A stretch of 64,000 nt of DNA, from the NCBI GenBank assembly GCA_017450465.1, contig JAFSUW010000014.1:1-64000 (forward strand). Direction: 5' to 3'. The notes beneath the pieces were generated by a model. That model saw only the letters and a list, made by a program, of their open reading frames with translations. It ran no database searches and was not told where the DNA came from. Position numbers and translations under genes: made by a program. The DNA is from Clostridia bacterium. Lineage in GTDB: Bacteria > Bacillota > Clostridia > TANB77 > RGIG9151. This document shows, piece after piece, positions 25,123 to 44,062 of this stretch; position 1 is the stretch's first letter; every line of letters starts with the position of its first letter.

Positions 25123-26190
25123 ATGAAAACAGCAGTGCTAATTATGGCAGGAGGTCATGGAGAACGTTTTTGGCCACGGAGTCGTAAAAATTTACCTAAA
25201 CAGTTTTTGAACATAACAGATAAAGAAAAAACAATGATTAGGTTAACGGTAGAGCGCATACTTCCACTTGTAAACATAGAAGATGTGTATATACTGACTA
25301 ATAAAGATTATTTTGGTTTAGTAAAAGAGCAATTGCCTGACTTACCAGAAGCAAATATTATTTGTGAGCCAGTAAGCCGTAATACAGCACCATGTATAGG
25401 GCTTGGTGCAATGTATGTTTCTAAAAAAGATACTGATGCAGTAATGTTTGTTTTACCATCAGATCATTTAATAAAAAATACAGAGGAATTTTTAAAAATT
25501 TTAAAAAATGCGAAGGAAATTGCAGAGTCTGGTGAGAATTTAGTTACAATAGGGATAACGCCAAATTATCCTGAAACGGGTTATGGATATATAAAATACT
25601 TAAAAGACATGAATAATGGTAGTTTTTCTGTGGATAAATTTGTGGAAAAGCCAAACATAGATAAGGCAAAAGAATATTTGGCTGATGGAAAGTATCTATG
25701 GAATAGTGGTATGTTTATTTTTACGGCTAGTACAATACTAAAAAACATGGAAAAATTTATGCCAGATACTTTTAATAAATTAAGTAAAATAAAAGAAGTA
25801 ATAGGGACAGAAAAGGAACAAGAAGTTTTATATGAGGAATTTCAAAAAATAGAGAAACAATCTATAGATTATGGTATAATGGAAAAGGCAAGTAATATTT
25901 TTACCATACCAGGTAGCTTTGGATGGGATGATGTTGGTTCCTGGGTAGGCCTTGGCCGAATTAATGAAAAAGATGAAAATGATAATGTATTACTTGGAAA
26001 TACTGTTACAGTAAATACAAATGGTTGTATTATTTGTGGTAATAAAAGGTTAATTGCTACACTAAATGTCAAAGATTTGGTTATAGTAGATACAGAGGAT
26101 GCTATACTTATTAGTGATAAGAATAGTACAAATAATATTAAAGAAATAATTAATAAAGTAAAAGAGAGTAGCGGGGAAAAATACTTATGA
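25123..26190 (+). CDS. manC: Mannose-1-phosphate guanylyltransferase
   Basis: It makes GDP-mannose from mannose 1-phosphate and GTP. The 355-residue product has the nucleotidyltransferase signature MAGGHGERFWPRSRKNLPKQFL (residues 8-29), the DHLI segment in LPSDHLIKN, FVEKPNIDKA and SFGWDDVGSW. It lacks the C-terminal phosphomannose isomerase domain of longer bifunctional enzymes. The start ATG 25123 follows AAGGAGG. Its end overlaps wzm by four bases. It supplies substrate for Gmd further on and for mannosyltransferases. Confidence 0.95.
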   Translation: MKTAVLIMAGGHGERFWPRSRKNLPKQFLNITDKEKTMIRLTVERILPLVNIEDVYILTNKDYFGLVKEQLPDLPEANIICEPVSRNTAPCIGLGAMYVSKKDTDAVMFVLPSDHLIKNTEEFLKILKNAKEIAESGENLVTIGITPNYPETGYGYIKYLKDMNNGSFSVDKFVEKPNIDKAKEYLADGKYLWNSGMFIFTASTILKNMEKFMPDTFNKLSKIKEVIGTEKEQEVLYEEFQKIEKQSIDYGIMEKASNIFTIPGSFGWDDVGSWVGLGRINEKDENDNVLLGNTVTVNTNGCIICGNKRLIATLNVKDLVIVDTEDAILISDKNSTNNIKEIINKVKESSGEKYL

Positions 26191-26963
26191 AAATATTAAA
26201 AGAATTGTATGATTACAGAGAAATGATTTTTAATTTAGTAAAGAAGGAATTAAGAGGAAGATACAAGGGTTCGGTTTTGGGCTTTTTATGGACGTTTATT
26301 AACCCATTATTCCAGCTTATAATTTATACAATAGTTTTCTCATATATTATGAGATCAGGTATAGATAAATATTATTTATTTTTGTTTGTGGCACTTATTC
26401 CTTGGATATTTTTCCAAACATCACTTCAAGGAGGGGCTGCATCAATTATTACCCAAAAAAGTTTGGTAACAAAGATATATTTTCCGCGTGAAGTAATTCC
26501 GGTATCTTTTGTTACAAGTTGCTTTATGAATATGCTATTTTGTTTTGTTATTATATTTATAGTAGTGGGGCTTGCGGGTGTAAAATTATCTTTGCTGGGG
26601 CTTTTATGTTTGCCTATCGTAATGCTTGTTGAATATCTTTTAGCATTGGGCTTTACGATGATCGCATCTGCGGTTACAGTTTATTTTAGAGATTTTGAGC
26701 ACATTTTAGGGATAATAGTTATGGCATGGATGTACTTAACACCAATCATTTTTGCATTAGATATAGTTCCAGATGCTTTTATGCCAATATTCAAGTATAA
26801 TCCACTTACTTATGTAATAGAAGCATATCGAGATATTTTATATGCAGGTGGAGTTCCACAAATGAGTGAGCTTTTATATTCGTTTATAGTAGGCGTAGTA
26901 GTTGTTGTTATAGGATTTATAGTGTTTGCAAAGTTAAAACGTCATTTTGCGGAGGAATTATAA
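26187..26963 (+). CDS. wzm: Polysaccharide ABC transporter, permease (Wzm type)
   Basis: An ABC-2 type permease of 258 residues with six predicted membrane helices and the family pattern KKELRGRYKGSVLGFLWTFINPLFQLIIY near the N-terminus. Such proteins export undecaprenyl-linked O-antigen, teichoic acid or S-layer glycans with a Wzt ATPase. The gene overlaps manC by four bases and wzt by one base, so the pair is translationally coupled. Confidence 0.93.
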   Translation: MKILKELYDYREMIFNLVKKELRGRYKGSVLGFLWTFINPLFQLIIYTIVFSYIMRSGIDKYYLFLFVALIPWIFFQTSLQGGAASIITQKSLVTKIYFPREVIPVSFVTSCFMNMLFCFVIIFIVVGLAGVKLSLLGLLCLPIVMLVEYLLALGFTMIASAVTVYFRDFEHILGIIVMAWMYLTPIIFALDIVPDAFMPIFKYNPLTYVIEAYRDILYAGGVPQMSELLYSFIVGVVVVVIGFIVFAKLKRHFAEEL

Positions 26964-28297
26964 TGGAAAATGGGAATGTAATAGAGCTTAAGAATATATA
27001 CAAAAAATTTGATTTATACGTAGATAAAAGGCAAAGTTTTAAGGAAAAATTCTTGTTCCATCCAGCAAACAACCATACTGAAGTAGTGGTACTAGATGAT
27101 ATATCACTTAGTATAAAAAAAGGCGAATCGGTAGGTTTAATTGGGCGGAATGGATGCGGAAAAAGCACGTTATTAAAACTTATTTCTAGAATTATGTATC
27201 CAGAAAAAGGAACTGTTGCTGTAGAAGGTAGAGTGTCTAGCTTAATAGAACTTGGTGCAGGTTTCCATCCAGATATGAGTGGTAGAGAAAATATTTTTAT
27301 TAATGCTTCTATTTTAGGGCTTTCTAAAAAGGAAACTGAAGAGCGTATGGCACAGATTATAGAGTTTTCTGAACTTGGTGATTTTATTGATAATCCAATA
27401 AGAACGTACTCTTCCGGTATGTATATGCGTCTTGCTTTTGCTGTTGCGATAAATGTAGATGCTGATATTTTACTTATAGATGAGATTTTATCGGTAGGAG
27501 ATATTAGTTTCCAAAAGAAATGTTTTGAAAAGTTAAAAGAGATTAAATCTCGTGGGACAACTATTGTTATTGTTTCACACTCACTTGGACAGATTGAAAA
27601 ACTTTGTAATAAATCTTATTGGATTGAAGGTGGAAAAATTATTTGTGAGGGTAGTCCTAAAGCTGTTCACAAGAGGTACTTAAAATACATGAATCAAGAT
27701 GTTGAGGAAGTAATAAAAGAGGAAAAAGAAGAGGAAGAAAGAATAGAAGGAGTGACAGAAGAACCGAAAGTAGAAGAGCCAAAATCAGAAGAGCCAAAAG
27801 TAGAGGAACCACCTAAAGAAGATACTGAAGAGGTGCATGAAGATGTTTTGATTGAAACAGAGGAGCTTAGGAAAAATTCAAAGCGTTGGGGTAGTCGTGA
27901 AGTTGAAATAACATCGGTGGAGCTATTAGATGATAATGGTAACGCCAAAGGAAGTTTTAAAACTGGCGAAAATATCACAATAGTTATGAAGTATAATGCA
28001 AAAAAGCGTATAAGAAACATTGTTGCGGGTATTGGTATATTTAGAGCAGATGGTGTTAACTGTTACGGAACAAATACCTTAATAGATAAATTAAAGGGCT
28101 TAACGGTTTATAAAAATGGTGAAGTTATTTGCAAGGTAAAGAATAACTTGTTAGAAGGCAATTATTTATTAGATGTTGCACTTCATGAACCTAGTGGATA
28201 TGCGTATGATTATTATAGAGAAGTTTGCAAATTTAACGTAAAAGATGATTTGGTTGAGGCAGGTATCATAAGGCTTGACCATACATGGAAGTATTAG
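26963..28297 (+). CDS. wzt: Polysaccharide ABC transporter, ATPase with C-terminal Wzt domain
   Basis: A 444-residue ABC ATPase. Walker A GRNGCGKST near 60, signature YSSGMYMRL near 150, Walker B ILLIDE near 170, and H-loop VSHS are all intact. From about 247 to 297 there is an unusual acidic, Pro/Glu/Lys-rich linker with EEPKVEEPKSEEPKVEEPP repeats. From about 305 to the end there is a beta-rich domain (VEITSVELLDDNGN onward) like the Wzt carbohydrate-binding domain, which in known systems recognises a chain-end modification before export. Together with the coiled-coil methyltransferase further downstream this points to terminator-dependent export. Confidence 0.93.
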   Translation: MENGNVIELKNIYKKFDLYVDKRQSFKEKFLFHPANNHTEVVVLDDISLSIKKGESVGLIGRNGCGKSTLLKLISRIMYPEKGTVAVEGRVSSLIELGAGFHPDMSGRENIFINASILGLSKKETEERMAQIIEFSELGDFIDNPIRTYSSGMYMRLAFAVAINVDADILLIDEILSVGDISFQKKCFEKLKEIKSRGTTIVIVSHSLGQIEKLCNKSYWIEGGKIICEGSPKAVHKRYLKYMNQDVEEVIKEEKEEEERIEGVTEEPKVEEPKSEEPKVEEPPKEDTEEVHEDVLIETEELRKNSKRWGSREVEITSVELLDDNGNAKGSFKTGENITIVMKYNAKKRIRNIVAGIGIFRADGVNCYGTNTLIDKLKGLTVYKNGEVICKVKNNLLEGNYLLDVALHEPSGYAYDYYREVCKFNVKDDLVEAGIIRLDHTWKY

Positions 28298-28307
28298 GAG
28301 GGTTACA

Positions 28308-29174
28308 ATGAAAGGAATTATTTTGGCAGGTGGAAAAGGAACAAGACTATATCCAATGACACAAGTTGTATCAAAACAACTATTAAATGTTTATGATAAG
28401 CCACTTATTTATTATCCATTATCAACTTTGTTACTTGCAGATATTAAAGATATACTAATTATAACAACAAGTACAGATGTAGATAATTATAAAAAGCTTT
28501 TTGGTAATGGAGAAAACTTAGGTATAAAGATGTCTTACAAAGTTCAAGACGAGCCAAATGGTATAGCAGAAGCATTTGTTATAGGTGAAGATTTTATTGG
28601 TGATGACAATGTATGTTTAATTTTGGGAGACAATGTTTTCTATGGTGGTGATTTCGTAAATATTTTGCAAGAAGCAAAAAATATAAAAGAAGGCGGAATC
28701 ATTTTTGCTTATCCTGTGGCAAATCCTGAAAGTTTTGGGGTAGTTGAGTTTGATGAAACTGGCAAAGCTATTTCTATAGAAGAAAAGCCAAAGATACCAA
28801 AGTCAAAATTTGCAGTACCTGGATTATATTTTTATGACAATGAAGTAATAAACATTGCTAAAAACTTAAAGAAATCAGCTAGAGGGGAATATGAAATAAC
28901 TGATGTTAACCTAGAGTATTTAAGACAAGGTAAGTTAAATGTAAAACAATTAAGCCGTGGACTTGCATGGCTTGATACAGGAACTCCAGAAAGCATACTA
29001 AAAGCGTCAGAATTTGTATATACAATTCAAGCAAGGCAAGGGCAGTACATATCTTGTATTGAAGAAATTGCTTGGAGACGTGGTTTTATCGATAATAAAA
29101 AATTGATTGAAATAGGTAATAAACTCAAAATGACTGACTACGGGAAATATATTTTATCTTTAGTGGGTGAATAA
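28308..29174 (+). CDS. rmlA: Glucose-1-phosphate thymidylyltransferase
   Basis: RmlA joins glucose 1-phosphate and dTTP to dTDP-glucose. The 288-residue product starts MKGIILAGGKGTRLYPMT and has the family patterns SKQLLNVYDKPLIYYPLSTL, LGDNVFYG and EEKPKIPKSKFAVPGLYFYD. I choose ATG 28308, just after AGGAGGG; an upstream in-frame start at 28275 lies inside wzt. The partner genes rmlB, rmlC and rmlD are not in this window, so the final dTDP sugar is not determined here. Confidence 0.95.
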   Translation: MKGIILAGGKGTRLYPMTQVVSKQLLNVYDKPLIYYPLSTLLLADIKDILIITTSTDVDNYKKLFGNGENLGIKMSYKVQDEPNGIAEAFVIGEDFIGDDNVCLILGDNVFYGGDFVNILQEAKNIKEGGIIFAYPVANPESFGVVEFDETGKAISIEEKPKIPKSKFAVPGLYFYDNEVINIAKNLKKSARGEYEITDVNLEYLRQGKLNVKQLSRGLAWLDTGTPESILKASEFVYTIQARQGQYISCIEEIAWRRGFIDNKKLIEIGNKLKMTDYGKYILSLVGE

Positions 29175-30513
29175 AGTGATAAGAAAAAATCAACAAGTGC
29201 TAAACTCCATTCAAAAGATAATAGACCTAGTAATACTTTTTATTTCAATAGTAGCAGCATATTATATAAGATTTTATAAAACTGATTTGGAGCATTTAGA
29301 ATTATCTTTCTATATGTCGAGTGCAGTTATAATTATGCCACTTTACTTATGGACATGTAGTATATGTAATTTGTACAAGCCATTTAGAACCAATAATTTA
29401 ATTTACGAATTTTTACGAATTTTAGAAGCAACAGTAATAATTGCGGTTATCGCACTTGCGCTTTCTAATTTACTAAAAATCGTAAATGTATCAAGACTAG
29501 TAATATTATATTCAATGATAGTGAATGTAGTATTATTAACTGCGTTCAGATTTTCTTTAAGAATATTTTTAAGGAAAATACGATCTAGTGGGCATAACAT
29601 AAAATATATTTTGTTAATAGGTAAAAACGATGGATTAGTGCAAATTGCTCAAAAATTATCTAGTAAAGATGAATATGGATATGTCGTTACTAATTATAAG
29701 GGGAGTATAGGAAACTTAAATAAGTATTTAAGAAACAATTTAGTTGATGAAATTTTTGTTGCGACTGAGGATAATGACGATTTAGAAGCAATATATGGAT
29801 TATGTGAGAAATTTGGCATAAAGATAAATATTATACCTGCGTATGGTAAGTTTTTATTCAAAAGAATATATGTTGATGAATTTATTGGAATTCCAATAAT
29901 AAACGTTAGAGAGATTCCACTTGAAAGTATAGTAAATAGGGCAAACAAGAGAATTTTTGATATTTTAATTTCTATAATATCAATTATTGTTTTACTTCCT
30001 TTGTCGCTTATTGTGGCTATTTTAATAAAAGCTACTTCAAAAGGACCTGTTATATATAAACAAAGAAGGGTAAGTTATAACAGAAGACTATTTTATATGT
30101 ACAAATTCCGTTCTATGAAGGTAGATGAATCTTTTAAGGGCAATGTAAAAGCCGATGAAGATGAAAGATGTACAAAGGTAGGTAAGTTTATTAGAAAGTA
30201 TAAAATTGACGAAATACCGCAGTTATTTAATGTGTTAAAAGGTGATATGAGTTTGGTAGGACCAAGACCAGAAATTCCAACTTTAGTTAAACAGTATCAA
30301 GATGAAATTCCAAATTATATGCTTAAGCATCAAGTAAAAGCAGGTATGACAGGACTTGCACAGGTAAATGGATATATGGGTGATACTTCTATAAAAAAAC
30401 GTATAGAATTCGATAATAAGTATATTAACGAGTGGAGTATGTGGCTCGATATAAAGATATTATTTCTTACTTTGCCAAGTATATTTAAGAAAAGTGACGT
30501 TACAGAAGATTAA
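29167..30513 (+). CDS. Initiating phosphoglycosyltransferase (WbaP/WsaP type)
   Basis: A polyprenyl-phosphate sugar-1-phosphate transferase of 448 residues that starts glycan assembly on undecaprenyl phosphate. The N-terminal part has four to five membrane helices (about 18-115) and a CoA-binding-like soluble domain. The C-terminal ~190 residues are the catalytic bacterial sugar transferase domain, with a re-entrant hydrophobic helix, then FRSMKVDE, RKYKIDEIPQLFNVLKGDMSLVGPRPE and GMTGLAQVNG. GTG 29167 is the listed start and overlaps rmlA by eight bases; GTG 29176 is an alternative. Similar proteins start S-layer glycan chains with galactose or glucose. Confidence 0.92.
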   Translation: MNKVIRKNQQVLNSIQKIIDLVILFISIVAAYYIRFYKTDLEHLELSFYMSSAVIIMPLYLWTCSICNLYKPFRTNNLIYEFLRILEATVIIAVIALALSNLLKIVNVSRLVILYSMIVNVVLLTAFRFSLRIFLRKIRSSGHNIKYILLIGKNDGLVQIAQKLSSKDEYGYVVTNYKGSIGNLNKYLRNNLVDEIFVATEDNDDLEAIYGLCEKFGIKINIIPAYGKFLFKRIYVDEFIGIPIINVREIPLESIVNRANKRIFDILISIISIIVLLPLSLIVAILIKATSKGPVIYKQRRVSYNRRLFYMYKFRSMKVDESFKGNVKADEDERCTKVGKFIRKYKIDEIPQLFNVLKGDMSLVGPRPEIPTLVKQYQDEIPNYMLKHQVKAGMTGLAQVNGYMGDTSIKKRIEFDNKYINEWSMWLDIKILFLTLPSIFKKSDVTED

Positions 30514-31611: not shown

Positions 31612-33459
31612 ATGAACGCTATATACACAAAAATAAAAGATAACATTTTATTAATTGGAGTATGGCTACTATACTTCTTTTTGGTATGTGTAAACATGAG
31701 TAGCCCTGATAATTTAAGGATTGTACCTTATGATACTTTTAATAGTGTAGTAATCACGATTTTTAATTTTGTAACAATTATGGTTATAATAAAAAGTTTT
31801 TCTTTTATAGCAAAGTCAAAACTTATCATATTTTCTGAATTATTTTTGATTTCTTATTATGTATCAATATATTTTAATAGGCCTGACTATAGCAAGAATG
31901 TTATTTGGGTACCAATGATGATATTTAATGCGTTTATATTGGCAAGAGCTATTTGTAATAAAAAAGAAAACGTTGAAAAGTTATTAATTACTTTGGCAAG
32001 CGTTTTATCATTTATTGGTCTAGTTAGCATAGATATGGCGTCATGTAAGTTTATAGCAGCTTATATGGGGCTTATTATAAAATTATTTACAGGGTTGAAT
32101 TTCATGACTATCAAAATTGTAGAAACCGGTGAAAGAATAAAGTCTATAATGACCAACCCAAATATGTTTGCATCATTTATGGGTGTAGGAATTTTTATAA
32201 GTCTATATCTGTGTGAGCATAGCAAATATAAGAAGCTAGCAGTAGCTATGCTACTTATAGATGTTGTTTCGTTTATGTATGCGTTTAGTTTAGGTGCAAC
32301 TTTAATGCTTGCGGGTGCATTTTTAATATATTTTATAGTAAACATGAAAAATAGTTTAGCAAAGAAACTTTTTATAGTCCTTACAACTGGAGTGATTAGT
32401 GTATTTTGTGTAGGTACTGGTATAAAAGGTATAGGAGTAGCAGGTTTTATTACATATGTGCCACTTATTTCACTTTTTGTAGGATTTGTTTTTTTACTTG
32501 GAATTTTTGAAAAAGAAAAAGATATATTAAGTAGTAAATTTATTAAACCATTTATTATAGCGGTATGTTCGGTAGGTATTATAGTATTAGTTTTAGCATT
32601 TACAGTGATTGGTAAAGTAAAATTTACAGAAAATGCTTTGGAAAAGTCACTATCAGTACGTCTTAATTCTGGTGAATATGTTTTGAAATTGGAATTTGAC
32701 GATGCTTTAACATATGATATTGAAGTTCAAGGGCAAACTTTTGAACAGGCAAGTAGTAGAAATTTTGATGTGCTATATAATGAAAATGTATCAGGAAGTA
32801 ATGTAGAAGTACCATTTGAAACTATGGAGAATAATAGGGCAATAAAAGTTACAATAAAGCCAGAAGGCCAAGTAAATTTACTTAGTGCAAGGTTATATGA
32901 TAAAAATGATAGTTTAATTAAAAAGATAAAAATAAATTATTTATTAATACCAGATTTTGTTGAAAATAGATTATCTCCATTTAGCTCTAACCAAAATGCT
33001 TTACAAAGATTTGTGTTTTTCGCAGATGGGTTAAAAATTTGGCGATTAAATCCGTTAATTGGTAAGGGACCAGGAGCGTTTTTTATACATTTTAGGGATG
33101 TCCAGACAACACAGTATAATACGTGGTCATCGCATAATTTTTTTATAGACACATTATGTGATAGTGGCTTGTTTGGTGCCATATCACTAATTTCTATGAT
33201 TTTATTTGCAATATATTTAGTTATAAAGAATAGAAACAATGAATTTATTCTAGTTTTAGGTGTTATACTTATTTTTATGGTGGCTCATTCAATGATAGAA
33301 ATAAATTTTATTTATGCACCATATATGATAACATTGGGTCTTGTTCTAGGTATGATTTCATCTAATTCGGATGAAAAATTAAGCAAAGGTGGAATAGATA
33401 ACAATTTTGTCATAATTCTGGTTTTGAGTTTAATAAATGTGGTGTTTAATGTTATGTAA
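31612..33459 (+). CDS. O-antigen ligase/polymerase-like membrane protein
   Basis: A 615-residue integral membrane protein with about 12 hydrophobic helices and the O-antigen ligase (Wzy/WaaL, PF04932) pattern: MTNPNMFASFMGVGIF near 180 and, late, NPLIGKGPGAFFIHF followed by SSHNFFIDTLCDSGLFGA. A ~110-residue extracytoplasmic loop (about 345-450) carries a beta-rich insertion (SVRLNSGEYVLKLEFD). Such proteins polymerise glycans or transfer them to lipid or protein. Since Wzm/Wzt export normally needs no Wzy, transfer of the exported chain to an acceptor, possibly the S-layer protein, is the more attractive guess. The start follows AGGAGG. Confidence 0.85.
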   Translation: MNAIYTKIKDNILLIGVWLLYFFLVCVNMSSPDNLRIVPYDTFNSVVITIFNFVTIMVIIKSFSFIAKSKLIIFSELFLISYYVSIYFNRPDYSKNVIWVPMMIFNAFILARAICNKKENVEKLLITLASVLSFIGLVSIDMASCKFIAAYMGLIIKLFTGLNFMTIKIVETGERIKSIMTNPNMFASFMGVGIFISLYLCEHSKYKKLAVAMLLIDVVSFMYAFSLGATLMLAGAFLIYFIVNMKNSLAKKLFIVLTTGVISVFCVGTGIKGIGVAGFITYVPLISLFVGFVFLLGIFEKEKDILSSKFIKPFIIAVCSVGIIVLVLAFTVIGKVKFTENALEKSLSVRLNSGEYVLKLEFDDALTYDIEVQGQTFEQASSRNFDVLYNENVSGSNVEVPFETMENNRAIKVTIKPEGQVNLLSARLYDKNDSLIKKIKINYLLIPDFVENRLSPFSSNQNALQRFVFFADGLKIWRLNPLIGKGPGAFFIHFRDVQTTQYNTWSSHNFFIDTLCDSGLFGAISLISMILFAIYLVIKNRNNEFILVLGVILIFMVAHSMIEINFIYAPYMITLGLVLGMISSNSDEKLSKGGIDNNFVIILVLSLINVVFNVM

Positions 33460-33572: not shown

Positions 33573-35516
33573 ATGTCTAGCGAGCAAGAAAACGAGGATA
33601 TTCCTATATCCTACGAACATAGAATAATAAAAGAAGACTTAAAAGAGCTAAAAAGTCTATGTGTAATTGAAACTAATTATCCAATAAAATCACATAGTAA
33701 AATTTTTGGTCCTTTTATAGTACTTTTAAAAAAGATTATGCGAAAAGTTGTAAATAAATCGCTTGGTTGGTATATTAATCCATTAGTAGAGCAACAAAAT
33801 AAAGTAAACATGAGTGTTGTTGAAATATTAGAATTATATGATAAGTCGATAGAAAACAATATAGGTAAGTGTTTAGATGAATTAGATCGGCATGATGCAC
33901 TAATTGATGCTATTGATAAAAGAGTTGAAGAACTCAAAGATCAAAACGAAGACTCACATAAACTATTTACTGAAAGTATAGATAATATAAAAACATCTAT
34001 AGAGCAAAATGATGAGTCACATAGATTGCTATCTGAAAATATAAATGGTGTAGCAAAGCATACTGATGATTTGGAAAATAGTTTTAGAATTTTTACAGAG
34101 CAAAATGATGAATCACATAGATTGTTATCCGAAAATATAGATAGTGTGGAAACGCATACAGCTAATTTGGAAAATAGTTTTAGAATTTTTACAGAACAAA
34201 ATGATGAGTCGCATAGATTGTTATCCGAAAATATAGATAGTGTGGAAACGCATACAGCTAATTTGGAAAATAGTTTTAGAATTTTTACGGAACAAAATGA
34301 TGAGTCGCATAGATTGTTATCCGAAAATATAGATAGTGTGGAAACGCATACAGCTAATTTGGAAAATAGTTTTAGAATTTTTACAGAACAAAATGATGAG
34401 TCGCATAGATTGTTATCCGAAAATATAGATAATGTGGCAGCTTATACAGAAAATGTAGAAAAAAGTCTTAGAATTTATTCTGAACAAAATGATGAGTCAC
34501 ATAAATTATTATCTGACAATACTAATAGTGTATCAAAGCGTACTCAAGATATAAGCGATAGCTTAAAAAGAACAATAATACAAAATGAAGAAAAATGTGT
34601 AAACTTAATTTCCAATATTGAAAGTGTAGCAAAGCAGACTGAAGAAGTAAATGAGTCATTATTAAGGGTAATAGCACAAAATGATGAGTCGCATAAGAAC
34701 TTAGGGCTTAATATTGAAAGTGTAAACAATCAAAGAATAGATAGTTTTAATGAATTAGAAGCTAAAATTAAAGAGCATACAGACAAATTAAAATACATGA
34801 CACGTGTACTAAATATAGATTGTGATACAAAACTTTTGAATAAGCGTATTAATTATCTTGATTTTGAAAATAGATTTAGAGGTACACGTAAAGAAATAAT
34901 GGAAAAGCAGCGCCAATTTGTGCACTACTTTAGGGATACAAGCCATGGCGCAGAGATTTTAGACATTGGTTCTGGTAGAGGAGAATTCCTTGAACTAATG
35001 GCAAATGAAGAAATAAAAGCATATGGTGTAGATGTGTATAAGCCGTTTGTAACGTATTGTAGAAGAAGAGGTTTTAGAGTTGAAAACGATGATGCTTTGT
35101 CACATTTATCAAAAATACCAGATAGCGTTCTTGGTGGCATATTTATGGACTCGGTTGTTGAACATGTATCGGATGACTATTTAGTTAATCTTGTAGGGCT
35201 TTTATATAAAAAATTACGACCAGGCTGTTATTGTATAATAACAACTCCAAATCCAGAAACACTTGCTGGGTTAAACTGTTTTAATATAGATTTGGAACAT
35301 AAAAAACCAATACACTATTTAACACTTGAGTATTTACTAAAAAAAGAAAATTTTACGGAAGTAACAAGATATGAAACAAAAGAAGCCGATTTCCCTATAA
35401 AAATATCGAAATTAGAGGGCAATTTTCCAAATAAAACTGAATTTAATGCTGGAATTGATGAAATTAACAAGTTTGTATTTGGAAATAGGGAGTATGTTGT
35501 AATTGCTAGAAAATAG
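33573..35516 (+). CDS. Repeat coiled-coil protein with C-terminal SAM methyltransferase
   Basis: A 647-residue protein. After a basic N-terminal part comes a long helical region with eight 32-residue repeats (about 144-399), of type EQNDESHRLLSENIDSVETH; copies 2-4 are identical at protein level, copies 6-8 have drifted. The C-terminal ~210 residues are a class I methyltransferase with motif I ILDIGSGRGEF near 462, acidic GVDVY, and MDSVVEHVSDDYLVNL. The arrangement, coiled coil plus chain-modifying enzyme next to Wzm/Wzt, resembles WbdD, where the coiled coil measures chain length and methylation ends growth. WbdD has its coiled coil after the enzyme; here it is before. Role as chain terminator is inferred. 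The start ATG 33573 follows GGGTGAG. Confidence 0.88.
   Translation: MSSEQENEDIPISYEHRIIKEDLKELKSLCVIETNYPIKSHSKIFGPFIVLLKKIMRKVVNKSLGWYINPLVEQQNKVNMSVVEILELYDKSIENNIGKCLDELDRHDALIDAIDKRVEELKDQNEDSHKLFTESIDNIKTSIEQNDESHRLLSENINGVAKHTDDLENSFRIFTEQNDESHRLLSENIDSVETHTANLENSFRIFTEQNDESHRLLSENIDSVETHTANLENSFRIFTEQNDESHRLLSENIDSVETHTANLENSFRIFTEQNDESHRLLSENIDNVAAYTENVEKSLRIYSEQNDESHKLLSDNTNSVSKRTQDISDSLKRTIIQNEEKCVNLISNIESVAKQTEEVNESLLRVIAQNDESHKNLGLNIESVNNQRIDSFNELEAKIKEHTDKLKYMTRVLNIDCDTKLLNKRINYLDFENRFRGTRKEIMEKQRQFVHYFRDTSHGAEILDIGSGRGEFLELMANEEIKAYGVDVYKPFVTYCRRRGFRVENDDALSHLSKIPDSVLGGIFMDSVVEHVSDDYLVNLVGLLYKKLRPGCYCIITTPNPETLAGLNCFNIDLEHKKPIHYLTLEYLLKKENFTEVTRYETKEADFPIKISKLEGNFPNKTEFNAGIDEINKFVFGNREYVVIARK
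34002..34769 (+). repeat. 96-bp tandem repeats inside the coiled-coil gene
   Basis: Units of 96 bp start at 34002, 34098, 34194, 34290, 34386, 34482, 34578 and 34674. The three at 34098-34385 are nearly identical in DNA, with only a few changed bases; the flanking ones are progressively diverged. Each encodes 32 residues, so unit gain or loss keeps the reading frame. Confidence 0.95.
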
Positions 35517-35533
35517 GTATGGGGGAGTATTTA

Positions 35534-37918
35534 ATGAATAAAAAAATTGAAGTTAGTATTTATCTGCAAAATGGGAGTACACTTATAAAACAAACAGATT
35601 TTTTGCGATATGATGAGGAGAATTTTCAAGCTTCATTAGATATAGATGTCCCAGAGCAAATTTCTGAAATATATGTAGAGTTTTCTGGCATTACAATTTT
35701 TAAGGATTTTATAGTGCTTTCAGATAAAGGTAAAATAGGATATAAAAATTTAAATGGAATTAATATAAAAAATTTAGATTATTTTGTTACAGAGAAGCCA
35801 AAGATCTCTATAGATATTAGAGGCGAAGGAATAAGTTATATTAGATTAAAAGCTGAAATGTTTAGTTTTGGCCGTGATTACATAGATTTAATTAGTGATT
35901 TAGCTGATCTTTCTAGAATATACTGTGAAAAAGAAGAAGCTTGTGAGAAGTTAGAGCAACAGTTAAAAGAATTAATGGAATATAAGCAAAAATATTTAGA
36001 TATATTGCCTGAAACTGAAGAGTTGCGAAAGAAAATAGAAGAATTAAAAAATTTGGTGGATTATAAGAAAAGGTATACAGATATCTTAAGTGAAAAAGTC
36101 GATTTAGAAAATAAAGTTAATATGCTTCAAGTACAATATGACTCTATAGCTAATTCAAAAAGTTGGAAATTAACTAAACCAATACGTGTATGTTTAGATG
36201 CGATTAAACGATGCAAATTTGCAATGTGGTTAAAAAATAAAGATAAAGTATCTGATAAAGATATAGAAACTAATAAAAAAGAAGAAATAGATGAAAATTA
36301 TAGTTTTGAAAATAATATTAAAATTAGTGCTATTGTCGCAGTAAATGATAAAAATAAAGAGTTCTTAAAAGATACTATTCGTTCTTTGATGGCTCAAAAA
36401 TATAATAATTTAGAAATCTATTTAATAAATTATGGTGCTAATGTTTCAAAAGGACTTGAAAAGATAGTAAAAGAGTCAAGTAGACGTGATAAAAGAGTAG
36501 TTTTAAAAAGAGTTAGATACAAGCAAAGTAAATCACAAAGTATAGAAAATGCATTAAAAAATATAAGTGGCGATTATGCTGTTTTGGTAAATGAAGGTGA
36601 TATTGTTGCTGAGAATGCTTTTTTAGAAATTGCAATGGAAGTTAATAAGAATAATGCTGATTTTATATATTGTGATGAAGATAAATTTAAGAATACAGTT
36701 GAAACAACGTTTGACCCATATTTTAAGCCAGATTTTTCTCCGGATACTCTAAGAACGCATAACTATATTTCTAATTTTATCGCGTTTAATAAAAATTTGT
36801 TAAACGATGTTAATTTTGAAAACTTAAATAATGAAGCGTATGATTATGATTTAACATTAAGATTAACTGAAAAAGCGAAAAATATAGTTCATATTCCTAA
36901 ACTTTTATATCATATGAGATATTTTGGAAGCGAAAATTGTGAATATGTGTTTCCTAAGCAATATGATGATACTGCTGCAATACAAGTTTTGACGGAGCAT
37001 TTAAGAAGAATAGGAAGAAAAGGAGTTGTAACTAAATCAGATTATCCAAATATTTATAGAATTACATATGATATAAGTATTAATCCACTTATTTCTATTA
37101 TAATTCTAAATAAGGACAAAGTTACTTATTTAAAAAAATGTATTGATTCTATAGTTAATAAAAGTACATATAAGAATTATGAAATAATAGTTGTGGAGAA
37201 TAATAGTGTAGAAAATAAAACTTTTGAATATTATCAACAAATAAAGCAAAATAAAAAAATAAAAGTTATAACATATGATAAATCGACAACTTTTAATTTT
37301 TCGGCAATAAATAATTATGCAGTTGAAACTACTGCAAAAGGTGATATGATACTTTTACTTAATAATGATACTGAAATAATAACTCCTAATTGGATAGAAG
37401 AAATGCTTATGTATGCACAATTTGATGAAGTAGGTATTGTTGGTGCAAAGTTATATTATCCTAATGGTGCACTTCAGCACGTTGGTGTAGGCGTAGGTCT
37501 TATGGGAGTTTCAGCGCATTATTTTATGGGATATCCTAAAGATTTTCATGGCTATTTTGGAAGAATAAATTGTACACAAGATTTGGGTGCTGTTACTGGC
37601 GCATGTTTAATGGTTAGTAGGAAGAAATTTGATGAAGTTGGTGGGCTTGATGAAGGACTGGCTGTTGCATATAATGATATTGACTTTTGTTTGAAAATTC
37701 TTACAAAAGGTTATAAAGTAGTTTTTACACCATATGCAGAGCTTTATCATGCTGAATCCCTAACTAGAGGTTATTCTGATGCAACATTTGAGTCATCGAT
37801 GATTGAATTAAATGAAAAGAAAAGATTTCTTCTTGCCTGGGGGAAATTTATTGAAAAAGGCGATCCTTATTATAATAAGAATTTACCTCATACATTTGAT
37901 ATGAAACAACCAAAATAG
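35534..37918 (+). CDS. Dual GT2 glycosyltransferase (copy 1)
   Basis: A 794-residue protein with an N-terminal beta-rich domain (1-130), a coiled coil (about 135-205), the link SKSWKLTKPIRV, and two GT-A/GT2 domains. The first domain (about 262-480) has FIYCDEDKF in place of a classical DxD. The second (about 517-740) has ISIIILNKDK, NNDTEIITPNWIEEM and GACLMVSRKKFDEVGGLDEG with YNDIDFCLKI. Both may add sugars in turn, as in O-antigen rhamnan or mannan synthases. I choose ATG 35534, six bases after GGGGGAG; the ATG at 35519 lies before that site. A paralog with the same layout lies at 40578. Confidence 0.88.
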   Translation: MNKKIEVSIYLQNGSTLIKQTDFLRYDEENFQASLDIDVPEQISEIYVEFSGITIFKDFIVLSDKGKIGYKNLNGINIKNLDYFVTEKPKISIDIRGEGISYIRLKAEMFSFGRDYIDLISDLADLSRIYCEKEEACEKLEQQLKELMEYKQKYLDILPETEELRKKIEELKNLVDYKKRYTDILSEKVDLENKVNMLQVQYDSIANSKSWKLTKPIRVCLDAIKRCKFAMWLKNKDKVSDKDIETNKKEEIDENYSFENNIKISAIVAVNDKNKEFLKDTIRSLMAQKYNNLEIYLINYGANVSKGLEKIVKESSRRDKRVVLKRVRYKQSKSQSIENALKNISGDYAVLVNEGDIVAENAFLEIAMEVNKNNADFIYCDEDKFKNTVETTFDPYFKPDFSPDTLRTHNYISNFIAFNKNLLNDVNFENLNNEAYDYDLTLRLTEKAKNIVHIPKLLYHMRYFGSENCEYVFPKQYDDTAAIQVLTEHLRRIGRKGVVTKSDYPNIYRITYDISINPLISIIILNKDKVTYLKKCIDSIVNKSTYKNYEIIVVENNSVENKTFEYYQQIKQNKKIKVITYDKSTTFNFSAINNYAVETTAKGDMILLLNNDTEIITPNWIEEMLMYAQFDEVGIVGAKLYYPNGALQHVGVGVGLMGVSAHYFMGYPKDFHGYFGRINCTQDLGAVTGACLMVSRKKFDEVGGLDEGLAVAYNDIDFCLKILTKGYKVVFTPYAELYHAESLTRGYSDATFESSMIELNEKKRFLLAWGKFIEKGDPYYNKNLPHTFDMKQPK

Positions 37919-37958: not shown

Positions 37959-38813
37959 ATGTACGATTTTTTGATAGACAATGCAAATTATGAAATGGAA
38001 AGTAATATACTATTTAACAAAAAAGATGGTTTTAATGCGATAAAAACTAATTTCCCTGTTGATGGTCATGATGTGTATGATAACATAGAAGAAAAATCAT
38101 TTTGGTTTCAACACAGGATAAAATGTGTAACAGAAATAATGAAAAAATTTATAAAGCCAAAAAGTCAAATACTTGATTTAGGTGGAGGAAATGGATTTAA
38201 TACAAAGCATTTAAGTGATTTAGGTTATGATACTATTTTAATGGAGCCATCGCTTAGTGCATGTAAAAATGCGTCAAAACGTGGAGTTAAAAATATAATT
38301 TTAAGTATACTTACAGATGATAATGTAAAAAATAATTCACTTCCAAATGTATCTATGTTTGATGTACTTGAGTGTGTGCAAGATGATAGGCAGACGTTAA
38401 AAACAGTATATTCTAAATTAAAAAAAGGTGGCCATTTAATAATGGTTGTTCCAGCATTTAAGTCACTGTGGTCACAAGAAGATATTGATATAGGTAATGT
38501 AAGAAGGTTTTCAAAAAAAGATACTGAGAAAATGCTTCAAGAGCTTGGATACAAAATTGAATATTCAAATTATTTATTTGAGTTTTTGTTTGCACCTATT
38601 TTCTTTGAACGTGCATTAAAAGATAAAATATTTAAGCGTAAATATGATAATTATACTGAAAAGAAAAAGCTAATAGATAGTCAGCATAATATCGGTAATA
38701 ATGCTATTGTAAGTAAAGGAGTAGAATTTTGTTGTAATAGAGAATATAAAAAGATTCTTAAGAATAAAAAGATTCCTTTTGGAAGTAGTATAGTGATAAT
38801 AGCAAAAAAATAA
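37959..38813 (+). CDS. Class I SAM-dependent methyltransferase
   Basis: A 284-residue methyltransferase with motif I ILDLGGGNGFNTKHL near residue 71, acidic MEPSLS after strand two, and FDVLECVQDDRQTLKTVYSKLKKGGHLIMVVPA. The C-terminal part has a hydrophobic-basic tail typical of small-molecule or polyprenyl-linked-sugar methyltransferases found beside DPM-like GT2 genes. The next gene is such a GT2. It may methylate a glycan residue; the target is unknown. The start ATG 37959 follows GGAGGAG. Confidence 0.85.
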   Translation: MYDFLIDNANYEMESNILFNKKDGFNAIKTNFPVDGHDVYDNIEEKSFWFQHRIKCVTEIMKKFIKPKSQILDLGGGNGFNTKHLSDLGYDTILMEPSLSACKNASKRGVKNIILSILTDDNVKNNSLPNVSMFDVLECVQDDRQTLKTVYSKLKKGGHLIMVVPAFKSLWSQEDIDIGNVRRFSKKDTEKMLQELGYKIEYSNYLFEFLFAPIFFERALKDKIFKRKYDNYTEKKKLIDSQHNIGNNAIVSKGVEFCCNREYKKILKNKKIPFGSSIVIIAKK

Positions 38814-40577: not shown

Positions 40578-43022
40578 ATGTCACAGCAAAATATTGTAAC
40601 GGTATATTTTTTAGATGATTTTTTTAATGTAAAAACGACTAAGACGTTTGAATATAGCTTACCTATCTTTTCTCTTAATTTATCGATTCCTAAAAGTATA
40701 ACGAAAATATTTCTTGAATTTAATGATATTATAGTATTAAAAGATGTAATAGTTCAATCAGGCATAGGTACAATTCCGTATGAAAATGCAAATGGTATGC
40801 AATTTAACAATGTTAATTATTTTATTTCAAAAACGCCACAAATATCTATATGCGTAAAAGATGCAAAGAAAATACAGATAGATATGAAAATTTTTAGATT
40901 TTCTAAGAAATATTTAAGTTTGCTTACAGCAATTATAGAAGCTTCGAAGGAAATTGATAAAGGAGAAGCTAGATACGAAAAAGTTCTTAGTGAATTTAAC
41001 GAATTAAATGAGTATAAAGAAAATTATTTAAATGTTGAACCGCATTATGAAGAATTGGAGCAGGAGTTCCAAAAACTATCTGTATATAAAGAATATCAAA
41101 ACAAGTATTTAGATACCGTAAAATCTAATAATATGTTAAAAAAGCAAGTAGAAGAGCTAGAATTGAAGTACAATACTATATCGAATTCGAGATTTTGGAA
41201 GATAACCTGGCCAATCAGAAAGATAGCTGGTTTTATAAGAAAAAATAAGATTGCGATTATTATTTGGAAAGTTTGTAAAAGTTTAAGAAATGAAGGTCTT
41301 AAAAAAACATATATAAAAATAAAAAATAAATTACATTTTTCTAAGAAAAATTATAATGCACAAGATAGCATGATAACAGCAGATGAAATAGAAAAACAAA
41401 TTAATGTGGTTTTTCCTAAAGATTTGTGTGTTAGTATAGTGCTGGTTTTAACAGATGGTGTGAAATGTGTAGATGAAACGATAGAATCGGTTTTATCACA
41501 AACATATAAAAATTTTGAATTATTTATTGTGAAATGCACAAGTAACATTCCTGAATCAGCAGAAAAGTATATACGAAAAAAAGAAAATTTGGATAAAAGA
41601 ATAATATATAAAGATTTAAGGGGCAAAAATAAAGTAGAAGGCCTTGCCTATTCATTAAGTAATGTTCATGGGGATTATATTTTATTATTAAATCAAAATG
41701 ATATATTATCAGTAAATGCATTATTTGAAGTTGCCAAAGCAAGTTGTTATAAAAATGCTGATTTTATATATTGTGATGAAGATAAATTTGATACCAATAT
41801 AAAAAAAGCTTTTGATCCGTTTTTTAAGCCAGATTTTTCTCTAGATGTCTTAAGAACTTATAATTATATATCAAATTTTATTGCATTTGATAAAGCTTTA
41901 TTAAGTCAAATTGAATTATCTAAACTATTTTGTGACGCATATGATTATGATTTGACATTAAGATTAATAGAAAAAGCAAAAAATATAGTTCATATACCTA
42001 AAATATTATATCATTTAAGATATGAAAAACTTGATGATAAAAAGTATATTTTGCCTAAAGTTTATGATTTTGAGGAACAAAAGAAAATAGTAGAAGAACA
42101 TTTTAATCGGATAAACAGAAAAGCAAATGTTTTAAGAACTAATATCGATGGAATATGTAAAATAGAATATTCTCTTGTTGATGAACCATTAGTATCCATT
42201 ATAATATTAAATAGAGATAAAGTTGCTTACTTAAAAAAATGTATAGATTCAATCATTTCTAAAACAACTTATAAGAATTATGAAATTGTGATAGTAGAAA
42301 ATGGTAGTGAGGAAGATAGAACATTTGAGTATTATAATGTCTTAAAGTTAAATGATAATATAAAAATTGTAGATTATAGTGTTTCACCAGAGTTTAATTA
42401 TTCTTCAATGAATAATTATGCAGTTTCTGATGTGGCAAAAGGAGAAGTTTTACTATTCTTAAATAATGATACTGAAGTTATTACAGCCAATTGGATACAG
42501 GAGATGCTTATGTATGCACAATTTGAAGATGTTGGGGTTGTTGGTGCAAAGCTATATTATCCAAATGGAAAAATTCAGCATGCTGGTGTTGGTGTTGGAC
42601 TTATGGGTGTTGCAGCACATTATTTTCTAAATGCACAGAAGGAAGACGACGGCTATTTTTATAGAATTAACTCTGTACAAAATTTAAGTGCAGTTACAGG
42701 TGCATGTTTAATGATTAGAAAGGAAGTATTTGATAAAGTAAATGGATTTGATGAAAGCTTTGCGATAGCATATAATGACATTGATTTATGCTTAAAAGTT
42801 TTGAGTAAATCATATAATATAGTATATACACCATATGCAGAGCTTTATCATGAAGAATCTGTAACACGAGGTCATCCAGATGAATCGTTGGAGAAAAGCA
42901 AAATAGAAACAGAAGAAAGAAGAAGATTTGTAGATAGGTGGAAAAGTTTTTGTGAAACAGGAGATCCATATTATAACGTAAATTTATCAAGCAATAGTGT
43001 AGATTTTAAGTCATTTAATTAA
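40578..43022 (+). CDS. Dual GT2 glycosyltransferase (copy 2)
   Basis: An 814-residue paralog of the protein at 35534, with the same order: N-terminal beta-rich domain (1-120), coiled coil (about 130-200), the link SRFWKITWPIRK, a first GT2 domain (about 283-500, with IYCDEDKF), and a second (about 536-760) with VSIIILNRDK, NNDTEVITANWIQEM and GACLMIRKEVFDKVNG. The two copies are most alike in the second domain, so they may have similar donors but different acceptors. The start ATG 40578 follows ATGGAGGATAG. It precedes the radical SAM gene by 11 bases. Confidence 0.88.
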   Translation: MSQQNIVTVYFLDDFFNVKTTKTFEYSLPIFSLNLSIPKSITKIFLEFNDIIVLKDVIVQSGIGTIPYENANGMQFNNVNYFISKTPQISICVKDAKKIQIDMKIFRFSKKYLSLLTAIIEASKEIDKGEARYEKVLSEFNELNEYKENYLNVEPHYEELEQEFQKLSVYKEYQNKYLDTVKSNNMLKKQVEELELKYNTISNSRFWKITWPIRKIAGFIRKNKIAIIIWKVCKSLRNEGLKKTYIKIKNKLHFSKKNYNAQDSMITADEIEKQINVVFPKDLCVSIVLVLTDGVKCVDETIESVLSQTYKNFELFIVKCTSNIPESAEKYIRKKENLDKRIIYKDLRGKNKVEGLAYSLSNVHGDYILLLNQNDILSVNALFEVAKASCYKNADFIYCDEDKFDTNIKKAFDPFFKPDFSLDVLRTYNYISNFIAFDKALLSQIELSKLFCDAYDYDLTLRLIEKAKNIVHIPKILYHLRYEKLDDKKYILPKVYDFEEQKKIVEEHFNRINRKANVLRTNIDGICKIEYSLVDEPLVSIIILNRDKVAYLKKCIDSIISKTTYKNYEIVIVENGSEEDRTFEYYNVLKLNDNIKIVDYSVSPEFNYSSMNNYAVSDVAKGEVLLFLNNDTEVITANWIQEMLMYAQFEDVGVVGAKLYYPNGKIQHAGVGVGLMGVAAHYFLNAQKEDDGYFYRINSVQNLSAVTGACLMIRKEVFDKVNGFDESFAIAYNDIDLCLKVLSKSYNIVYTPYAELYHEESVTRGHPDESLEKSKIETEERRRFVDRWKSFCETGDPYYNVNLSSNSVDFKSFN

Positions 43023-43033
43023 GGAGGTAAAAA

Positions 43034-44062
43034 ATGAGTACAGTAACTAATAATTTTAATGCGGATGAAAAAATACTAAAATATGTAGACAAGCTAGATT
43101 ATTTCTTTAATTCGCATAAGACATTAATTGTAGTAGAGTTTGATTTAACGAACAAATGCAATAACAGATGCCCTAAATGTTGTGGCATAAACGAAAACAA
43201 CAAAGAACTTAATAAAGAACAAATTGACAACATAATTTATGGCTTAAATGCATTAGAATGTAAAGGTGCAATTTTATCTGGTGGTGGTGAACCATTAATT
43301 AGTCCTTATTTTGAATATGCCTTAAAGAAACTTAGAAATTGTGGAATAAAATGTGGAGTAAATTCTAATGGGCTTGCGTTAAATGAAAAGTTATCGTATT
43401 TAATTGCAGAAAATTGTGAATATTTAAGAATTAGTTTAGATGCAGCTACTCCTGAAATTTATAAATTGACACATGGAATGGATGAAAAATGCTTTAATCA
43501 AACGTTAGAAAATATAAAGAATTTTGCAAGAATCAAGAAAGAAATTGGTAGTAGTACAAGTTTTGGTGTCGGTTTCTTAACAAGTAAAGATACTGAGCGT
43601 GATATGGAGGGCTTTGTAAAACTTACGCGTGATCTTGGAGTAGATTTTGCACAATTTAGACCATTTACAGAAGATATGCTTGATATAACTGAAAAGTATA
43701 ATGAATTAAAAGAAAAATATGAAACAGATGATTTTAAGGTTCGTGCGTCTATGCAAAAATATAGAGAAATGGGAACTTTAGGTGAAAGACCATATAATAA
43801 ATGTAGCGGGATGTTCTTTTCTACAGTTATTACAGCAAATGCAAAAGTGTTTGCTTGTCTTCATCATAGGCAAGATGATAAATATTTTTTAGGTGATATA
43901 ACAGATAAAGATAGTTTAGAAAATATATTTCGTTCAGCACGTATGAGGGAAGTTTATGAAAGTATTGATTGTAGCAAATGCCCACCTCTTTGTAGAAACG
44001 ATGTGTTTAATAGAACATTAAATACACTTTCATTAGATGTAGGACACAAAGAATTTCTATGA
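43034..44062 (+). CDS. Radical SAM protein with C-terminal extra Fe-S region
   Basis: A 342-residue radical SAM enzyme. The cluster motif is C42-x3-C46-x2-C49 in NKCNNRCPKC, followed by AILSGGGEPLISP (SAM-binding GGE) and LRISLDAATPEIY. The C-terminal part has further cysteines (YNKCSGMFF, FACLHH, CSKCPPLC) as in SPASM or twitch domains that bind one or two more clusters. Members inside polysaccharide clusters may remodel sugars, but the substrate cannot be told. The start ATG 43034 follows AAGGAGG. It is flanked by glycosyltransferases. Confidence 0.88.
   Translation: MSTVTNNFNADEKILKYVDKLDYFFNSHKTLIVVEFDLTNKCNNRCPKCCGINENNKELNKEQIDNIIYGLNALECKGAILSGGGEPLISPYFEYALKKLRNCGIKCGVNSNGLALNEKLSYLIAENCEYLRISLDAATPEIYKLTHGMDEKCFNQTLENIKNFARIKKEIGSSTSFGVGFLTSKDTERDMEGFVKLTRDLGVDFAQFRPFTEDMLDITEKYNELKEKYETDDFKVRASMQKYREMGTLGERPYNKCSGMFFSTVITANAKVFACLHHRQDDKYFLGDITDKDSLENIFRSARMREVYESIDCSKCPPLCRNDVFNRTLNTLSLDVGHKEFL

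Follow-up and report, generated by a model that had tools for sequence, protein, structure and literature searches.

The terminator WbdD of Escherichia coli O9a caps the glycan chain from the far end of a coiled coil that measures ~200 Å, and changes in the length of this coil change the length of the chain (PMC5082667). The WbdD cap is read by the C-terminal domain of Wzt before export, and the O8 terminator is a methyltransferase that lacks a kinase (PMC3482155). The Klebsiella systems studied all have their terminator at a distal position on a coil (PMC11231755). For the S-layer glycan of Geobacillus stearothermophilus, a methyl cap attributed to WsaE has been proposed as both stop and export signal (PMC2943079).

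The window analyzed here, a 64,000-nt stretch of DNA from a Clostridia bacterium, carries a glycan-export cluster whose features are listed in Table 1. The gene at 33573-35516 encodes a protein in which an anchor, a helical repeat arm and a methyltransferase follow each other, and this methyltransferase very probably acts on the glycan exported by the Wzm-Wzt pair of its own cluster.

Table 1. Positions in the window of the glycan-export genes and of the parts of the gene at 33573-35516.
Feature	Position	Strand	Evidence and remarks
Wzm, exporter permease	26187..26963	+	PF01061; NF050109/NF050053
Wzt, exporter ATPase with C-terminal carbohydrate-binding domain	26963..28297	+	PF00005, PF14524
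Wzt_C domain, aa 306-437 of Wzt, proposed cap reader	27878..28273	+	PF14524, E 3.8e-32
Polyprenyl glycosylphosphotransferase, chain initiator, WbaP-like	29167..30513	+	PF02397; TIGR03025 above cut-off
Wzy_C O-antigen-ligase-like membrane protein, candidate transferase of the finished glycan	31612..33459	+	PF04932, E 1.1e-5, below gathering score
Whole gene: anchor, helical repeat arm and methyltransferase	33573..35516	+	647 aa
Conserved anchor motif, aa 38-85	33684..33827	+	SH.K..GP.IVL.KK..RK...WYINP.VEQQ..N; anchor profile E 3.7e-17, this protein being among the rows of the profile
Helical arm, aa 86-424	33828..34844	+	339 aa, no proline; hydrophobic period 3.56 = 32/9
Eight 32-residue (96-nt) tandem repeats, aa 144-399	34002..34769	+	
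Repeat units 2-4 (recent duplications)	34098..34385	+	protein identical, DNA 96-99% identical
Class I SAM-dependent methyltransferase, 3dli type, aa 425-647	34845..35513	+	
Tandem GT2 protein, candidate polymerase	35519..37918	+	PF00535, two stretches; 2 bp after the gene at 33573-35516
Second, stand-alone methyltransferase (alternative capper or decorator)	37959..38813	+	Methyltransf_23
Second tandem GT2 protein	40578..43022	+	PF00535, two stretches

The cluster contains the gene set of an ABC-transporter-dependent glycan pathway, with Wzm, a Wzt having a carbohydrate-binding domain, an initiating transferase, and GT2 and GT4 proteins. GDP-mannose genes encoding ManC, phosphomannomutase and GMD were also found. 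The genes of an slg cluster are likewise present, namely Wzm/Wzt, a WbaP-like initiator and a Wzy_C transferase, the match of the latter lying below the Pfam gathering score. By analogy, the cluster is similar to the slg clusters for S-layer protein glycosylation (PMC2943079), and an SLH-domain protein of 986 aa encoded directly upstream of it (18876-21836) is a possible glycan acceptor. The two tandem GT2 proteins each have some 250 additional residues at the N-terminus, consisting of a non-helical-looking start, a coil-like stretch and then a basic segment of the SKSWKLTKPIR type. A radical SAM/SPASM protein (43034-44062, Pfam E 1.8e-15) is encoded within the cluster, and rplM-rpsI together with an AgrB-like gene lies between the genes of two DUF6311 proteins (47095-49254, 719 aa; 51437-53587, 716 aa).

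Within the arm, repeat units start at aa 144, 176, 208, 240, 272, 304, 336 and 368 with zero indels, and Tandem Repeats Finder returned a 96-nt array of 5.5 copies (91% match, score 801). The protein sequences of units 2-4 are 100% identical and their nucleotide differences are exclusively synonymous, which together with the high DNA identity indicates recent duplication. Self-similarity of the arm at lag 32 was 30 s.d. over that of shuffles preserving the hydrophobic/polar pattern. The stretch aa 80-424 contains no proline and three glycines, and its hydrophobic residues recur with a period of 3.56 (32/9), equivalent to heptads plus one four-residue stutter per unit. Since a column-shuffled control matched the hydrophobic power of this stretch in 55 of 2000 cases, the periodicity by itself is modest evidence for a coiled coil.

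The initial annotation had described eight 32-residue repeats in a helical region before a class I methyltransferase, in a cluster with Wzm and a Wzt having an extra C-terminal domain. The exact units at aa 144-399, together with Pfam, PDB 3dli and AlphaFold2, agree with the first part, the Pfam matches to PF01061, PF00005 and PF14524 (E 3.8e-32) agree with the second, and the position of the methyltransferase at aa 425-647 places the coil ahead of the enzyme, as had been stated. The description had not mentioned the conserved anchor at aa 38-85 or the four genes that separate Wzt from the gene at 33573-35516.

The methyltransferase domain matches MetW/Methyltransf_23/11 in Pfam and carries the SAM-binding motif DIGSGRGE. 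Against PDB 3dli, E was 6.7e-40 and the target TM-score in fold comparison was 0.94, so that fold, sequence similarity and SAM-binding motif all place the domain among the 3dli-type class I methyltransferases. Four positions that are nearly invariant in the family differ in the window protein (S467 for C, S527 for Q, T557 for E, and Y582 for P).

A search of the genome collection with a five-sequence alignment yielded at least 400 encoded relatives. The best 80 of these at least 400 were from Bacillota (Ruminococcus, Paenibacillus, Thermohalobacter, and others), methanogenic archaea, Acidobacteria, Nitrospirae, Wirthbacteria, Cloacimonadota and others, and nearly all of the 80 have an N-terminal segment, a helical region and then a C-terminal methyltransferase. 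The proposal of a separate evolution of the ruler in a Gram-positive was therefore too narrow, the order of coil and then enzyme being the norm across Bacillota, methanogenic archaea and several other phyla. The order is not universal: a relative on Shinella plasmid p4 (L036:6001-7221), directly after Wzt, has the reversed, WbdD-like arrangement with the methyltransferase first and a likely coil behind, and a Gram-positive methyl cap had already been proposed for WsaE (PMC2943079).

The full-length window protein, used as a query with 146 relatives, gave no match besides itself, and pattern scans of genome and viral contigs for the methyltransferase only gave zero relatives. In the literature searched, no description of the broad anchor-arm-methyltransferase family, no biochemistry on any of its members and no paper on an archaeal Wzm/Wzt system with a capping coil were found. 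Some Methanosarcina members of the family lie in open frames of ~1100 aa (L156, L161-L165, L168, and L169), and a related protein (L061) has an extra N-terminal part ahead of the anchor, containing further methyltransferase-like sequence and a likely beta-rich domain. A 1113-aa protein (G896), suspected by its length to be WsaE-like, was rejected for its GT-TPR-MTase-GT layout.

The anchor module had zero matches in curated Pfam and NCBIfam. Measured by hydrophobic moment, aa 42-59 are the most amphipathic 18-residue stretch of the protein, with a net charge of +5. The anchor profile, built from fused proteins with the window protein among its rows, matched 48 family methyltransferases and 14 separate small ORFs (124-176 aa). 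Eleven of these 14 follow the methyltransferase gene in Ruminococcus-type loci, where anchor and methyltransferase are on separate proteins. Small proteins (133-176 aa) with an anchor and a short coil, encoded next to Wzt or the methyltransferase, were observed just after the methyltransferase in L048, L056, L064, L065, L069, L071, L075, L076, L078, L084 and L107, and with no family methyltransferase nearby in L182:9250-9699, L183:8580-9053 and L184:10194-10595.

Linkage to the exporter was observed throughout the family. In the 62 relatives with more than 3 kb of upstream sequence, Wzt is directly upstream in 37, and both Wzm and Wzt are present in the locus in 45. In a sample of 391 genomes of the window's class, Wzt_C was found in 66 and the methyltransferase (E<1e-20) in six, all of them among those 66 (hypergeometric 1.9e-5, a value that treats the genomes as independent, though they are related). 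When the Wzt C-domain of the window was used as query in the same sample, eight other genomes matched at 1e-35 to 1e-24, followed by the next at 7e-8. These eight include all five other methyltransferase-bearing genomes (7.6e-10, again treating related genomes as independent). In the remaining three, which lack a family methyltransferase, Wzt is followed directly or at a short distance by a small anchor protein, indicating that the anchor module has some additional role; this undescribed module accompanies one type of Wzm-Wzt exporter even without the methyltransferase. In the window's own order, the genomes with Wzt_C lack methyltransferase and anchor alike, and their Wzt is of another type. 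An origin of the cluster as an ordinary one of its order was rejected for this reason, and exporter and methyltransferase appear to have arrived together.

These data also bear on whether the enzyme caps the chain or decorates it. A decorating methyltransferase would modify the sugars of the repeat unit or a precursor, the coil would be a tether to the membrane complex, and another protein (e.g., that at 37959-38813) would form the cap. The second methyltransferase of the cluster and the four divergent positions of the window enzyme are in line with decoration, but a decorator need not show the ties that this family has to a cap-reading Wzt and to a single Wzt_C type, and decoration is regarded as very unlikely.

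Arm length was taken as the distance from anchor to methyltransferase. The arm of the window protein is the longest of the 49 measured, with 339 residues, followed by one of 210, and the median is about 110; lengths range from 20 to 339 aa, and many relatives have short arms of 20-60 aa. Significant tandem repeats, scoring above all 100 shuffles, were found in 15 of 41 arms, with best lags of 7, 10, 11, 15, 23, 32, 45 and 60. In six Methanosarcina-type orthologues, whose methyltransferase parts are 74-83% identical, the arm segments have 76, 98, 98, 98, 105 and 131 residues. They differ by 0, 7, 22, 33 or 55 residues, and against L044 also by 26 and 29; the steps of 22, 33 and 55 correspond to 2, 3 or 5 eleven-residue units and are located inside the repeat. 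Duplication that preserves the helix phase explains the whole-unit steps, and selection may act on arm length. A close relative of the window carrying the gene at 33573-35516 was not found.

An enzyme that caps without a ruler would end the chains and mark them for Wzt_C, with the arm as a scaffold or oligomerization rod that recruits glycosyltransferases and with a kinetically determined chain length. Such an enzyme could well have arms anywhere between 20 and 339 aa, and in some members the anchor is indeed on a separate small protein, with or without the methyltransferase. However, the arms are proline-poor and helical and change in whole repeat units while the methyltransferase is conserved, and the window arm has grown through recent duplications that differ only at synonymous sites, so that capping without a ruler is considered unlikely.

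Structure prediction of the arm, which had been suggested as a check, confirmed the helical region but did not give a continuous extended rod. The AlphaFold2 monomer of the window protein has a short helix at 12-29, an amphipathic helix at 46-63, and long helices at 65-220, 228-370 and 381-413 at moderate confidence, followed by the methyltransferase with a pLDDT of about 98. The second AlphaFold model, of a family member from Thermosediminibacterales (L090), has the same anchor-arm-methyltransferase layout. In both monomer models the helix is interrupted near mid-arm, at aa 221-227 in the window protein and at 222-227 in L090. A helical arm and a basic amphipathic segment are present, the monomer models being compatible with both an extended arm and a hairpin. 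In a hairpin, the enzyme would work beside the membrane, and arm length would tune stiffness or oligomer state, not reach. The mid-helix break in both models suits this fold, but modelling one chain of a homo-oligomeric coiled coil does not decide between the two folds, and the broken unit shares its sequence with units 2 and 4, which are predicted helical, so the break in the window protein may be an artefact. The hairpin is judged distinctly unlikely.

The favored reading of the protein is an anchored chain terminator and ruler with inverted polarity, and the full mechanism is given a slightly better than even chance. The basic amphipathic helix (aa 42-63) would lie at the inner surface of the membrane, next to both the polymerase and Wzm-Wzt. 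The 339-residue arm, as an oligomeric coiled coil, would hold the C-terminal methyltransferase off the membrane, with a reach of about 50 nm if straight (figured at 1.5 Å per residue). The lipid-linked growing chain would be methylated at its non-reducing end only once long enough to reach the enzyme, and this methylation would halt growth and create the mark for the Wzt_C domain ahead of export. Gain or loss of a 96-nt repeat would then shift the arm, and hence glycan length, in steps of ~4.7 nm. If the membrane binds the N-terminal anchor, the methyltransferase at the C-terminus takes the distal position, so that the logic of WbdD would hold with its polarity reversed.

This terminator and ruler is favored by the family-wide linkage to Wzm/Wzt, the common Wzt_C type, the changes of arm length by whole repeat units, the conserved anchor-arm-methyltransferase layout and the published WbdD precedent. 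Against it weigh the mid-helix break, which suits a hairpin joining both ends; the many short arms; the anchor without methyltransferase in three of the eight genomes sharing this Wzt_C type; the split proteins of the Ruminococcus type; and the four divergent near-invariant positions. The modest periodicity, the location of Wzt four genes away and the second methyltransferase of the cluster, which could form the cap, weigh in the same direction. Of the earlier claim that the protein stops and caps chains, a capping methyltransferase on a helical arm, tied to Wzm/Wzt with a carbohydrate-binding Wzt_C, is supported; the terminator-ruler reading comes out strengthened, and the complete mechanism keeps the more guarded standing given above.

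On a broader scale, it is possible, at somewhat less than an even chance, that the family represents a widespread and so far undescribed class of chain terminators in Gram-positives and archaea, with an anchor, a repeat-built coiled coil and a distal methyltransferase, with stepwise evolution of glycan length, and as a mirror image of WbdD derived from another methyltransferase lineage. If so, glycan length would evolve one repeat unit at a time, with slippage of the repeats within a lineage as a possible mechanism, and the class could be the length factor that is still missing for Gram-positive S-layer-type glycans. The family is a concrete candidate that would extend the ruler idea to archaea, and its naturally occurring arms, which differ in length by exact repeat steps, provide a test bed for the ruler model.

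Compared with known proteins, the methyltransferase shares fold and sequence family with PDB 3dli of Archaeoglobus fulgidus, a structural genomics entry; unlike the window protein, 3dli is a 240-residue chain without an arm, and its structure record gives no function. No kinase domain was matched by Pfam in the window protein, the remaining sequence of which is helical. Profile A1 against all PDB chains (E<=1e-5) recovered 12 sequences, none named WbdD, and WbdD was absent from the 50 best fold matches of the methyltransferase. Membership of WbdD was rejected on the basis of the reversed domain order and of these comparisons, which recovered no sequence relationship.

The WsaE cluster of Geobacillus stearothermophilus is similar to that of the window in being Gram-positive, with Wzm/Wzt export, a WbaP-like initiator and a Wzy_C transferase (PMC2943079). 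In contrast to the window protein, WsaE has an N-terminal methyltransferase fused to two rhamnosyltransferases, and coiled coils are unmentioned in PMC2943079. WbbB of Klebsiella O12 and ORF6/ORF7 of Klebsiella O7/O4 resemble the arrangement predicted for the window protein in having the terminator at the distal end of the coil. In WbbB and in ORF6 of O7, polymerase modules are part of the same polypeptide, whereas the window protein has the methyltransferase only; in O4 a sugar (Kdo) transferase adds the cap, and in O7 the cap consists of methyl phosphate, as opposed to the methyltransferase here (PMC11231755).

WbdD itself (E. coli O9a/O8 and Klebsiella O3/O5) combines a capping enzyme and a coiled coil in one protein (PMC3482155, PMC5082667, PMC11231755), as does the window protein, for which capping and the coiled coil are predicted. 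Both have an amphipathic segment at the end opposite to the enzyme, with a predicted membrane location in the window protein, along with ABC export and a Wzt C-domain that reads the cap in WbdD systems and is the proposed cap reader here. They differ in that the enzyme of the window protein is C-terminal instead of N-terminal and, by the comparisons above, of another methyltransferase lineage, its anchor is N-terminal, and its arm is longer and has exact tandem repeats; at about 50 nm if straight, this arm would be two to three times that of WbdD. The best reading is that the protein at 33573-35516 works like WbdD and, as far as sequence comparison indicates, is not a relative of it.
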